Positions 7,257-11,214 of a DNA stretch of 64,000 nt are shown one piece after another. The DNA is taken from the NCBI RefSeq assembly GCF_004403065.1, contig NZ_SOHA01000005.1, forward strand, positions 478,352 to 542,351, given 5' to 3'. The position numbers and the translations under genes were made by a program. Positions within the stretch are counted from its first letter, which is position 1, and every line of letters begins with the position of its first letter. This DNA comes from Cryobacterium cryoconiti. GTDB taxonomy: Bacteria > Actinomycetota > Actinomycetes > Actinomycetales > Microbacteriaceae. The notes below the pieces were generated by a model that saw only the letters and a program-made list of their open reading frames with translations, searched no databases and had not been told where the DNA came from.

Positions 7257-7342
7257 GCCGGTGTGGCGGAATGGCAGACGCGGAGCACTCAAAATGCTTT
7301 GTTCGAAAGGACGTGTGGGTTCGAGTCCCACCACCGGTACCA
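7257..7342 (+). tRNA. tRNA-Leu, anticodon CAA (reads TTG)
   Basis: Full cloverleaf of the long-arm type. The acceptor GCCGGTG pairs with CACCGGT (a G-U at the end), the anticodon stem GAGCA/TGCTT encloses loop CTCAAAA giving anticodon CAA, a long variable arm carries GTTC-GAAA-GGAC, and the T-stem GTGGG/CCCAC encloses TTCGAGT. The discriminator A and an encoded CCA end (7340-7342) are present. Confidence 0.96.
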
Positions 7343-7387: not shown

Positions 7388-7418
7388 CGGGGATCCCTCG
7401 GGGATCCCTCGGGGATCA
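7388..7418. repeat. Short tandem repeat, 11-base unit CGGGGATCCCT
   Basis: Two perfect units (7388-7398, 7399-7409) and most of a third (7410-7417) run into the stop codon of the EspR-like regulator gene. Each unit contains the palindrome GGGATCCC. Function unknown; it may simply be slippage-derived or may fold in the 3' end of the operon transcript. Confidence 0.85.
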
Positions 7419-7898
7419 GCTGTCGGCTTGCTGAAGCGTGGTGTCGCCGCCCTGCATGTCTTCTTCCAACAGGGCCGTGATCGACCGCAGCGTTTCCGGT
7501 GAGACATCGCCGAGAGTGCGTGCCGCGAAGCTGACGACGCGCCTGGCGCGCAGGCTCCTCACGAATGCGAGCTGGGAATCGACGCGCTCCGGCAGGTCGT
7601 CGTCGGATCCGAGCAGGTATTCCGGCGGAATGCGGAAGAACTCGCCGATGCCGGTGAGCAGGTCGACGTCGGTGACGAGCGGCCCGTCCCCCGTGATCAT
7701 GTACGCCCAGCGGGCACGGGAGAGGGACAGTCCGCGGTCCTGAAGCCCGGCTGCGATCTGCTTGTAGGTGTGCGGCGTATTCCCCTCGGCGACGACCACG
7801 TCGAGCAGAAGGTTCAATTTACGTGCCAGCTCCCGCTGAGGGCTGATCGTTCGGTCGGTCACTGACGAGGCTTCGGCGTCCACTCGGGAATCACTCAT
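7416..7898 (-). CDS. EspR-like helix-turn-helix DNA-binding regulator
   Basis: A 160-residue regulator. From about residue 24 it follows the pattern of mycobacterial EspR: ARKLNLLLDVV, NTPHTYKQIAAGL, LSLSRARWAYMITGD (recognition-helix region), then GIGEFFRIPPEYLL, and a C-terminal helical part of the kind that makes the EspR dimer. EspR is a nucleoid-associated regulator of the XRE-like fold; this resemblance is my reading of the sequence. The start overlaps the stop of the membrane protein gene by eight bases (ATGAGTGA), so the two are coupled. It is the last gene of the three-gene module. A plausible role is to control the module or a regulon, possibly as target of the peptidase; that is inference. 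Confidence 0.75.
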   Translation of the reverse strand: MSDSRVDAEASSVTDRTISPQRELARKLNLLLDVVVAEGNTPHTYKQIAAGLQDRGLSLSRARWAYMITGDGPLVTDVDLLTGIGEFFRIPPEYLLGSDDDLPERVDSQLAFVRSLRARRVVSFAARTLGDVSPETLRSITALLEEDMQGGDTTLQQADS

Positions 7899-8940
7899 GA
7901 TTATTCGGTCCGCTCGAGATTCTCTGTTGTGTGACGCTGACGGGGGAAGCGAAGGCGGGAGGCCGGGTGCGCACGTGGTCCTCGACCTGGTCGATCAGCC
8001 TTTGTTCGCCCGCAGACAGGTGCTGGCCGGGCTCGAGGAGCATGCTGTCCCGGATCTCGACATAGCGCCGGTACAGGTGGGCGCCGGGGCTCCGCACGAC
8101 GAGAAGGCCGGGCCGGGACAGGTGGCGCTCAATGCTGAGCTCCGGGGACCCGGCCAGGACGCGTTCCCACAGCGGGGTGACCCGCCAGAGCAGCCGCCGG
8201 TCCTGAACCGCGTTCCCGGTGAACCGGATCGAATCGACCGCTGCGGTCAGACTCAATCCGACAGCGAGGCTGATCAGGGCCCCGAGCAACGAAAGCTGAT
8301 ACAGGAACAGGAGCCACCCCGAGAACACGAAGGAACCCAGGGTCAGCGATGCGGCGGCGCTGCCCAGGCTGATCATCGTGTAGACCAGAATCCAGAAGCA
8401 GCCGAACACCAGAGACCCGAGTGCGATCCGCGTGACGGTACGGCGCTGAGTGCGCCGATCGCTCAGGCACGCGACGGCCACCGATACGGAGAAGAAAGCC
8501 ATCGTGATCCAGGTGGACGCGGCGTACAGGGCATAGTCGACCCGTGACAGGAAGGGCTGTCGGATGTCATCTGTCAGGTGCCAGTCGCCGCCGAAGAACA
8601 GAATGGCCTGCACGAGAATTATCGACCCGGCGAACACGGCAGTGGCCCGCATTCGTCGACGAGTCAGTCCGTGGGGTGCGATGGCCTCCTGCACGAGGTT
8701 GCTGACGAGCGCCACGGAGATGATCGCGGTCGCGTGGAAGATGAAGTACGTGACGTGAACGCCGCCGATGAGAGGGTCGATCCGGTAGTACACGACATCC
8801 GGCTGGAGGGTGAGCGTCGTGGCGAGGGCGCTGAGCACCCAGAACAACAATCGGCGCTGTCCACGCACGAAGGAGGGGACACAGACCGCGACAGCGACCC
8901 AGAGGACGACCGACACGGTCACGAGGATGACCTGCATCAC
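7891..8940 (-). CDS. Seven-helix membrane protein, MAB_1171c/DUF6545 type
   Basis: A 349-residue membrane protein. Hydrophobic segments lie near residues 3-22, 29-46, 60-84, 98-118, 134-158, 168-190 and 202-232, followed by a soluble tail of about 110 residues (from DRRLLWRVTPLWERVL onward) that should be cytoplasmic. This layout fits the family called MAB_1171c putative transporter with a DUF6545 tail, widespread in actinomycetes; no transport activity is established as far as I know. It overlaps the peptidase gene by four bases (ATGA) and the regulator gene by eight, so the three form one operon. A sensor or anchoring role is an inference from the setting. Confidence 0.72.
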   Translation of the reverse strand: MMQVILVTVSVVLWVAVAVCVPSFVRGQRRLLFWVLSALATTLTLQPDVVYYRIDPLIGGVHVTYFIFHATAIISVALVSNLVQEAIAPHGLTRRRMRATAVFAGSIILVQAILFFGGDWHLTDDIRQPFLSRVDYALYAASTWITMAFFSVSVAVACLSDRRTQRRTVTRIALGSLVFGCFWILVYTMISLGSAAASLTLGSFVFSGWLLFLYQLSLLGALISLAVGLSLTAAVDSIRFTGNAVQDRRLLWRVTPLWERVLAGSPELSIERHLSRPGLLVVRSPGAHLYRRYVEIRDSMLLEPGQHLSAGEQRLIDQVEDHVRTRPPAFASPVSVTQQRISSGPNNHE

Positions 8941-9494
8941 AGCACCCGCCCGAAGCCGGTGCGTGGGCCGTTGGCCGCGTCTGCGCTGTCGCGCAGCATG
9001 ATCAGGGCCAGCCGGTCACCGATCGCCTCAGCCAGGGCCTCCTGCTCGTCGGTGAAGTTGCTGCGGGACAACGCATAGGCAATGGAATCGAGCGGGATGA
9101 GCGGCGCGAGCATCGCCACCCGTTCCTCCGGTACGAGCACGGTGTCGTGCCGGAGGATCATGTGCCCGAACTCGTGGTTGATGAACTGCTGCCGGTGAAC
9201 CGCCGAGTCGGTCGGTGCATGGTGGATGCGCTCGAAGTTCTCCCCCGCCACCGCGATCCACAGGCCGCAGACGCCGGATTCGAGAAGCCGAGGACTCGCA
9301 GCGCGAATGACGATCGGCTTGCCGCGCAGGCCCTCCATGTGGCGATGGAGTGTCACCGCCGTCAACGGAGAGGGCAGGGCGAGGGCATCCACGAGCTCGC
9401 GCGCCCGCTCCCTGCGTGTTTCGTAACTCAGGCTGGATTCCCCACTCGACGGCGCCAGCACCCCCTTCGGGGGCATGGGGCGAACGTTAGACAT
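8937..9494 (-). CDS. ImmA/IrrE family zinc metallopeptidase
   Basis: A 185-residue protein with H107-E-F-G-H111 followed by MILRH, the HExxH zinc site of ImmA/IrrE peptidases; the acidic helix EALAEAIGDRLAL near residues 152-164 fits the third ligand region. Known members (ImmA of ICEBs1, IrrE/PprI of Deinococcus) cleave a partner XRE-type repressor, so cleavage of the co-encoded EspR-like protein is a testable inference. Two ATG codons are possible: 9494 (MSNVRPMPP, chosen) and 9530 (adds 12 residues). Neither has a clear ribosome-binding site, so a leaderless or short-leader message is possible. First gene of the three-gene operon. Confidence 0.8.
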   Translation of the reverse strand: MSNVRPMPPKGVLAPSSGESSLSYETRRERARELVDALALPSPLTAVTLHRHMEGLRGKPIVIRAASPRLLESGVCGLWIAVAGENFERIHHAPTDSAVHRQQFINHEFGHMILRHDTVLVPEERVAMLAPLIPLDSIAYALSRSNFTDEQEALAEAIGDRLALIMLRDSADAANGPRTGFGRVL

Positions 9495-9535
9495 GTCCAA
9501 CAGGTGATAACGTGAACCCTGATCGAACATGTCTA
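9488..9535. promoter_or_regulatory. Inverted pair of ACATGT palindromes, candidate operator
   Basis: TAGACATGT (9488-9496) and its reverse ACATGTCTA (9527-9535) are 36 bases apart centre to centre. Each core is the palindrome ACATGT, and each overlaps one of the two possible start codons of the peptidase gene. Between them, on the minus strand, TTATCA could be a -10 box. The symmetric pair suggests a dimeric regulator, perhaps the EspR-like protein; unproven. Confidence 0.4.
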
Positions 9536-9716
9536 CGCTACCGGGTCGGGGGACCTGCGCAAGCCAGAAGACGATCGGTCATGCACCATCGCGGAGTATA
9601 CGCGCACAGCCTCATGGGCGGCACCGAAGGGGAACAGGGTGCCGCCCGGGGGCGGTGGGTACGAGCGGCAGGTCCGCGCGATGGGTCCGCTGGTTTCCAG
9701 CCTGCGCCGGGTACGA
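9536..9716. other. Intergenic stretch without a recognisable gene
   Basis: About 180 bases between the peptidase gene and the pyruvate kinase terminator. Open frames exist on both strands but none has a credible protein or ribosome-binding site. I see no RNA gene or attachment site in it. Confidence 0.5.
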
Positions 9717-9768: not shown

Positions 9769-11214
9769 CTAGCTCTTGGCGTAGGCCGGGTGAACTTCAT
9801 TGTGGGCATCGCCGACGCGGTGCACACGGATGTCGTTCGTGGAACCGGCGATTCCGGGAGGGGAACCGCTGATGACGACGACCTTGTCACCGAGCTGGGC
9901 CAGACCCTGGCCGAGCAGGATGTCATCGACCTGACCGAACATGGCGTCCGTGTGCGTGACACGGTCGACCAGGTACGTCTGGATGCCCCAGGTGAGGGCC
10001 AGGCGCCGACGGATGCCGGCCTCCGGGGTGAAGGCCAGCATGGGGATCTTCGAGCGCAGACGGGACATCCGTCGGGCCGAGTCACCGGACTCCGTGAAGA
10101 TGCAGAGGAACTTCGCCTCGACGAACTCGGCGACCTCGATGGCGGCGAGGGTGATCGCGCCACCCTGGGTGCGCGGCTTGTTCGTCAGCGGAGCAATGCG
10201 CTCCAGACCGTGGTCCTCGGTCGACGCGACAATGCGCGCCATCGTCTGGACCGTCACGACGGGGTATTCGCCGACGCTGGTCTCGCCACTGAGCATGACC
10301 GCGTCCGCACCGTCGAGCACGGCGTTGGCGACGTCGGACGTCTCCGCGCGAGTCGGGACCGGGCTGTGGATCATGGACTCGAGCATCTGCGTCGCCACGA
10401 TGACCGGCTTGGCCATGCGGCGCGCCAGCTCCACGGCGTGCTTCTGCACGATCGGAACGGCCTCGAGGGGCAGTTCGACACCCAGGTCGCCACGAGCGAC
10501 CATGATGGCGTCGAACGCGTCGACGATTCCCTCAAGGTTCTCGACGGCCTGCGGCTTCTCGATCTTGGCGATCACGGGAACGCGACGGCCTTCTTCTTCC
10601 ATGATTTCGTGCACGCGGGTGATGTCGGCGGCGTCGCGAACGAACGACAGGGCGATCAGGTCCGTGCCGAGGCGGAGGCCCCAGCGCAGGTCTGACTCGT
10701 CCTTCTCGGACAGGGCCGGCACATTCACGGCAACGCCGGGAAGGTTGATGCCCTTGTTGTTCGAGACGGGGCCGGCAACGATGACCGTGGTCGTCACGAC
10801 GGTGTCGTTCGTGGCGACAACCTCGACCTTGACCTTGCCGTCGTCGATCAGCAGGAAGTCGCCCGGCTTGACGTCCTGGGGCAGGCCCTTGTACGTCGTA
10901 CCGGAGATCTCCTTGGTGCCGAGGATTTCTTCCGTGGTGATCTTAAAAATGTCTCCGACGGCCAGGTCGTAAGGGCCGCCCTCGAACTTGCCGAGACGGA
11001 TCTTCGGTCCCTGCAGGTCGACCATGACGGCGACGGCGCGACCGGAATCGTTCGCCGCTTTGCGTACATTCGCATAAACACCCTCGTGGACTTGGTAGTC
11101 CCCATGGCTGAGGTTCATCCGGCAAACGTCGACTCCGGCATCGATGAGGGCTCGGATCTGGTCGTAGCTGGAAGCTGCCGGCCCGAGGGTGGCAACAATT
11201 TTGGCGCGTCTCAT
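9769..11214 (-). CDS. pyk: Pyruvate kinase
   Basis: Last step of glycolysis, phosphoenolpyruvate + ADP to pyruvate + ATP, 481 residues. The N-terminus RRAKIVATLGPA and MNLSHGD are typical of the barrel domain; the active-site signature IAKIEKPQAVENLEG with MVARGDLGVE is intact, the lidded B domain occupies about residues 70-165, and the C-terminal regulatory domain follows from about 350. A GGAG lies ten bases before the ATG. Single gene between its own terminator and gltD. Identification is secure. Confidence 0.97.
   Translation of the reverse strand: MRRAKIVATLGPAASSYDQIRALIDAGVDVCRMNLSHGDYQVHEGVYANVRKAANDSGRAVAVMVDLQGPKIRLGKFEGGPYDLAVGDIFKITTEEILGTKEISGTTYKGLPQDVKPGDFLLIDDGKVKVEVVATNDTVVTTTVIVAGPVSNNKGINLPGVAVNVPALSEKDESDLRWGLRLGTDLIALSFVRDAADITRVHEIMEEEGRRVPVIAKIEKPQAVENLEGIVDAFDAIMVARGDLGVELPLEAVPIVQKHAVELARRMAKPVIVATQMLESMIHSPVPTRAETSDVANAVLDGADAVMLSGETSVGEYPVVTVQTMARIVASTEDHGLERIAPLTNKPRTQGGAITLAAIEVAEFVEAKFLCIFTESGDSARRMSRLRSKIPMLAFTPEAGIRRRLALTWGIQTYLVDRVTHTDAMFGQVDDILLGQGLAQLGDKVVVISGSPPGIAGSTNDIRVHRVGDAHNEVHPAYAKS

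Follow-up and report, generated by a model that had tools for sequence, protein, structure and literature searches.

A conserved peptidase–membrane protein–regulator module in Cryobacterium and its predicted operator

The window analysed here is a stretch of 64,000 nucleotides from Cryobacterium cryoconiti (contig NZ_SOHA01000005.1, positions 478,352 to 542,351). Its minus strand encodes a three-gene module: a zinc peptidase, a seven-helix membrane protein and a helix-turn-helix (HTH) regulator (Table 1). The open reading frame (ORF) of the peptidase was called at 8937–9494, with the frame open to 9530. It overlaps the membrane protein gene by 4 nt (8937–8940), and that gene overlaps the regulator gene by 8 nt (7891–7898); overlaps of this size had been reported in an earlier sequence-only reading, and the coordinates confirm them. 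The module is flanked by a pyruvate kinase gene (9769–11214) and a tRNA-Leu(CAA) gene. Our main result concerns a palindrome at this module, which we predict to be the operator of the regulator. Within the genus we distinguish type I, to which the window belongs, and a second type, type II.

Table 1. Features of the module and its surroundings in the window
Feature	Position	Strand	Remark
EspR-like helix-turn-helix regulator	7416..7898	-	EspR match in PDB
Seven-helix DUF6545/MAB_1171c-type membrane protein	7891..8940	-	Predicted N-terminus out, cytosolic helical tail
ImmA/IrrE-like zinc peptidase	8937..9431	-	Most likely start CTG at 9431
HEFGH active-site motif	9162..9176	-	HExxH kept in aligned peptidases
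Predicted operator 2, TGGACATGTCTA	9488..9499	-	1 mismatch; 36 bp from operator 1; holds ATG 9494
Predicted operator 1, TAGACATGTTCG	9524..9535	-	3 mismatches to palindrome; touches -10-like element
Promoter-like pair TTGCGC (9557-9562) and TAGCGT (9535-9540), 16-bp spacer	9535..9562	-	Inferred, by eye
tRNA-Leu(CAA)	7257..7342	+	Flank of module, not a member

In the 185-aa form of the peptidase, the HEFGH motif falls on residues 107–111. Aligned peptidases of the genus, type I and type II together, have HExxH in 60/60 cases, and downstream E164 and E168 (197-aa numbering) are each conserved in 59/60. We infer that one of these two is a zinc ligand. Pfam Peptidase_M78 did not match the window peptidase, and the paralogue scored 14.2 bits against a cut-off of 22. 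In a structure comparison the modelled window peptidase has the IrrE-type peptidase fold, which together with the motif agrees with the HEFGH zinc peptidase proposed before. Across 41 type-I loci, counting the window, the conserved N-terminus starts at a single position, with GTG in 19, ATG in 17, CTG in 3 and TTG in 2; the window is one of the CTG cases. The true start is probably CTG 9431 rather than ATG 9494, since the conserved N-terminus does not begin at this ATG, which moreover lies within a predicted operator.

The structure predicted for the membrane protein (mean pLDDT 89.8) has seven membrane-length helices, by our own reading of the helix list of the model, and a helical tail; the sequence-only reading had likewise described seven helices and a soluble tail. 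Arginines are found at the predicted inner helix ends, and R291, E295, R297 and D298 of the tail are invariant in 61/61 aligned membrane proteins. The protein belongs to the DUF6545/MAB_1171c family; it matches Pfam DUF6545 above the cut-off (33.6 bits versus 24.4) and scores below it for the NCBIfam subfamily MAB_1171c, 'putative transporter' (88.4 versus 100). Receptor-like Foldseek matches were generic, none reaching E 0.001, and were given no weight. A scan of named genomes with the membrane protein confirmed no relative, and tblastn against plasmids gave no match, although a profile search does detect relatives there.

The regulator matches EspR in the PDB over residues 24–130 (E 1.3e-7 to 1.6e-7), so the EspR-like pattern first noticed by inspection holds at the level of a sequence match. 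Much of its DNA-facing part differs between types, as do the operators. A C-terminal stretch, FAARTLG-x-[VI]SP, is near-identical across all types and would fit a common peptidase contact or a common dimer surface.

We searched 57 genomes of the genus for the three genes. A membrane-protein match was found in 45, of the window type in 43 and of the second type only in G011 and G013. The type-I peptidase is present in the same 43 genomes (the G033 copy is read in two frames), and the type-I regulator in those 43 and in G013; 12 genomes have none of the three genes. The three genes thus co-occur, as the sequence-only reading required. The order peptidase–membrane protein–regulator is kept in all inspected type-I loci (the window and 40 others). 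Six of 41 type-I loci lie at pyruvate kinase/tRNA-Leu and 35 elsewhere. In G039 the membrane gene is at a contig end and the module is divided between two contigs. In G022 the peptidase gene shares a single base with the regulator gene, about 590 kb from the membrane gene.

Type II was found at 26 places, one of them in the genome of the window itself (L002). Our analysis covers 19 of these; one of the other seven, L173 (G034), was inspected in addition, and its reading is fragmented, as is that of L170 (G021). All 19 fetched loci carry peptidase, membrane protein and hydrolase genes in this order, preceded by a regulator in 15 and without an adjacent regulator in four. The peptidase therefore fits the role of a hub that pairs separately with the regulator and with the membrane protein, because it stands beside the regulator when the membrane gene is gone (G022) and beside the membrane gene when the regulator is missing (four type-II loci). 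An apparent peptidase–membrane protein fusion, P0179, was rejected as a natural fusion, since an internal deletion seems to have brought the ends of the two genes together.

The pattern TAGACATGTC(T/C)A was first read by eye from type-I promoters. Over the 57 genomes we found 56 exact places in 42 genomes, compared with 2 for the reversed pattern used as control. Of these places, 43 precede the peptidase gene, 9 directly follow the regulator gene and 4 are elsewhere, so that 52/56 are at the module; the count per genome is 0-3, and one to three wherever the palindrome is present. It should be noted that matches in the promoters themselves are expected, as the pattern was derived there. The informative part is its near-absence elsewhere in the same genomes and its full absence from the 12 module-less genomes; it is likewise absent from G011 and G013, two genomes without type-I module. 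Among the 43 genomes with the module, exact sites at it are missing from two: G007 has near-matches only, and in G022 the module is split. Allowing one mismatch in eight genomes added four places (two in G022, one each in G029 and G030), about the level of the reversed-pattern control. Paired sites before the peptidase, with at most 3 mismatches, occur in 15/41 loci, spaced by 36 bp in 14 and by 37 bp in one, and the window carries both.

The 10-kb regions around the four off-module sites (G009:C41, G000:C43, G022:C2, G027:C39) share no sequence in any of the six pairs compared by blastn, and we therefore see no conserved distant target. The one in the genome of the window (L174:4992; G000:C43:148991) overlaps what is probably the start codon of a gene for a small membrane protein. 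The type-I regulator of G013 (L169, G013:C30:380171) is an orphan without type-I peptidase or membrane gene, and this genome has no palindrome with at most one mismatch.

The type-II loci have palindromes of their own. Type-IIb promoters carry TTGAGCATGCTCAA, and an exact search found it at 14 places in 14 genomes (control 0), all of them 114–167 nt upstream of a type-IIb regulator match; G011 and G021 are type-IIb genomes without an exact copy. In type-IIa promoters we read sites of the type TAGGCATG(T/C)C by eye. Perfect palindromes of 8 nt or more with CATG at their centre are found upstream in 13 of the 15 regulator-bearing type-II loci (all but L087 and L088); the four regulator-less loci have none. 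Judging from these sequences, operator class largely follows regulator class. Most likely the regulator controls its own operon, since the palindrome is tied to the module and absent without it, type II has its own palindrome, and regulator-less loci have none. A regulon of stress or mobile-element genes, as known for the partner repressors of ImmA and IrrE, is not supported, as the predicted operator is nearly confined to the module. In the four regulator-less loci (L073, L077, L081, L082) a common inverted repeat, ATTCGCTACGAAT, was seen by eye before the peptidase instead of CATG palindromes.

In nine genomes (L061-L069; e.g. L063:6621-6978) an exact palindrome with a -10-like element stands behind the regulator and faces a small RNA with C-rich loops on the opposite strand. 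In L066 most of the stretch between palindrome and RNA is gone and both elements are kept. The RNA had no match at the Rfam gathering threshold; for L063, the comparison with the 6C family gave 30.7 bits, below the cut-off of 47. GGGG occurs within 21 nt ahead of the start in 27/41 type-I peptidase genes (window, L029-L069), a possible target of RNAs with C-rich loops.

Beyond the genus, DUF6545 was found in 27/396 genomes of the phylum and in 7/100 of the family, four of the latter above the cut-off. We took 46 places from the phylum set and four from the family set (L117–L166), of which 47 were analysed by rule; L165 and L166, with weak DUF6545 matches, were left out. An HExxH ORF ending at most 60 nt from the membrane-gene start is present in 37/47 loci, versus 58/4700 random points in the same loci. 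Among the ten failing this rule, L117, L118, L145 and L155 have a peptidase-profile match nearby, in another arrangement or with another start choice. Pfam M78 matches, present in 18/25 DUF6545 genomes, were rejected as partners: they are not beside DUF6545, and the adjoining peptidases are divergent ones, detected through motif and profile searches. The peptidase–membrane protein pair is more general than the triad, because an EspR-like gene was detected in only 14/50 DUF6545 loci outside the genus; an annotated HTH gene of another kind, such as that of L180, would escape the profile used. Two other genera have the order regulator–peptidase–membrane protein, one with an exact type-IIb palindrome and near-copies, the other with near-copies only.

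An ORF of at least 150 aa starts between -45 and +150 nt behind the membrane gene in 36/47 loci. We count only the Pfam results here, because DNA of this kind often contains long ORFs by chance. A Pfam scan of 29 of the 36 gave 14 enzymes above cut-off: seven FAD enzymes, two amidohydrolases, and one each of beta-lactamase-type enzyme (PF00144, in L120), short-chain dehydrogenase, amidase, alpha/beta hydrolase and M48 peptidase. The remainder comprises one DUF6545, two matches below cut-off (PAP2, FAD), ten without match at E 1e-4, and two ORFs, DUF3574 and DUF222, that are probably unrelated neighbours.

Peptidase relatives were also found on 54 plasmid records. Plasmids of two Pseudarthrobacter encode regulator, peptidase, membrane protein and an MpaB-type oxygenase in this order; in pACHL01 of Pseudarthrobacter chlorophenolicus (L178 1934-6332) the regulator and the oxygenase enclose two tandem peptidase-membrane pairs. 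A conjugative Arthrobacter plasmid (L179) has all four type-II genes, as peptidase–membrane protein–hydrolase–regulator. A further plasmid example, from Streptomyces sp. 769, is annotated with HTH–peptidase–MAB_1171c–methyltransferase, the HTH gene having no match to our regulator profile.

The module looks like a switch of the ImmA/IrrE–repressor type, and the palindrome tied to it is the new finding. In BlaR1–BlaI–BlaZ, one operon combines a membrane sensor and a zinc protease with a repressor and with an enzyme encoded downstream. The predicted component set is the same, in L120 even with a downstream enzyme of beta-lactamase type, but sensor and protease are one protein in BlaR1 and two separate genes here. 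EspR of Mycobacterium tuberculosis binds broadly along the chromosome and is not known to have peptidase or membrane partners. The regulator has sequence similarity to EspR in the HTH and in part of the C-terminal region; its candidate operator has 0-3 exact places per genome. With ImmA–ImmR of ICEBs1 the module shares a short HExxH peptidase and an Xre-type regulator. To our knowledge neither ImmA–ImmR nor CapP–CapH of the cyclic oligonucleotide-based antiphage signaling system (CBASS) has a membrane partner. ImmA–ImmR is located on a mobile element (PMC2701414) and CapP–CapH is activated by single-stranded DNA and tied to an immune pathway (PMC10904395). IrrE/PprI–DdrO of Deinococcus shares with the module the zinc peptidase fold of the IrrE N-terminal domain and a partner HTH regulator. 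IrrE also carries an HTH and a GAF-like domain and is a sensor of single-stranded DNA (PMC10904395), whereas the module peptidase is one short domain encoded beside a membrane gene. The nearest published work that we found is the MAB_1171c knockout described below, from the one paper in which that name occurs, and a general survey of COG2856–Xre pairs, which left aside three pairs of an Xre gene with a membrane protein (PMC2701414). In the literature covered, outside of which subscription papers lie, we did not find the peptidase–membrane protein–regulator triad under the terms searched, DUF6545 by name, or IrrE together with EspR.

We suggest that the module is a self-contained switch, a reading that we regard as evenly poised between right and wrong. 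In brief, the regulator would bind the CATG-centred palindromes at the module promoter and repress the operon; the association is observed, the binding and its sign are predicted. The seven-helix protein, judging from gene pairing and predicted topology, may sense something outside or in the membrane and control the soluble peptidase through its conserved cytosolic tail. Once released or activated, the peptidase would, as its family suggests, cleave the regulator and open the operon. Cleavage gated by the membrane protein appears the simplest mechanism by analogy with the IrrE-type fold and family precedent. In type II and many other actinobacteria the downstream, often overlapping enzyme gene is a likely output or signal-processing part; the window version has no such gene. 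More doubtful is a wider proposal, that of a widespread actinobacterial receptor system resembling a split BlaR1. In it the seven-helix protein would gate a distinct cytosolic protease of ImmA type, this protease would destroy a dedicated repressor, and a swappable operon enzyme (hydrolase, amidohydrolase, amidase, flavin enzyme, MpaB-type oxygenase, methyltransferase) would make, alter or remove a small-molecule signal; in one clade of Cryobacterium, transcription from the same operator would also run into the C-rich-loop RNA. For IrrE/PprI and CapP the signal is an inner one, single-stranded DNA (PMC10904395); coupled to a membrane protein, a protease–repressor device of this kind could serve for outside signals. 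If true, this would give a function to DUF6545, listed by Pfam as unknown. The predicted operators make the switch directly testable, with one promoter and one short palindrome.

The peptidase might instead cleave the tail of the membrane protein, or some other protein, in an autoregulated operon where the regulator only sets the dose. The peptidase–membrane protein pair without adjacent regulator in four of 19 type-II loci is in line with this, as are the 36/50 loci outside the genus with no EspR-like gene detected, a count in which HTH genes of other kinds (L180) would be missed. We consider it rather improbable, given the peptidase and regulator genes of G022, which overlap although the membrane gene is far off, and the relatives IrrE, CapP and ImmA, which act on partner repressors (PMC10904395, PMC2701414). 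Less probable still is a transport function of the membrane protein, moving a peptide or lipid processed by the peptidase or the downstream enzyme. The sub-threshold NCBIfam name points this way, and a MAB_1171c knockout of Mycobacterium abscessus formed about half the biofilm; the transport role in that study was, however, itself derived from annotation and phenotype (PMC8707978). Pfam found no transporter domain, and seven predicted helices with a conserved cytosolic tail that holds invariant residues suit a receptor better.

For two further explanations we see very little room. One is a toxin–antitoxin, defence or mobile-element switch triggered by DNA damage, of ImmA–ImmR or CapP–CapH type. 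COG2856–Xre pairs have been catalogued as toxin–antitoxin-like (PMC2701414), PADLOC gave weak scores for capH (E 0.005, regulator) and capP (E 0.01, paralogous peptidase only), and the plasmid relatives, conjugative L179 included, fit mobility. A single scan of viral contigs, however, confirmed no relative; the neighbours in the window (polA, a response regulator, tRNA-Leu, pyruvate kinase) are housekeeping genes, no integrase search having been made, and a membrane protein would be an odd sensor of DNA damage. The other, equally remote, makes the regulator an EspR-like nucleoid-associated global regulator whose operon position is incidental; the EspR match speaks for it, and a palindrome so few in number and so nearly confined to the module speaks against it. 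Taken as a whole, the sequence-only reading is partly supported, in the co-occurrence of the genes, the peptidase fold and the EspR kinship.

Apart from the tRNA, no Rfam family was found in the window. By eye, a tandem repeat of an approximately 12-bp unit (ggggatccctcg) is seen at 7394-7420, reaching into the end of the regulator gene.
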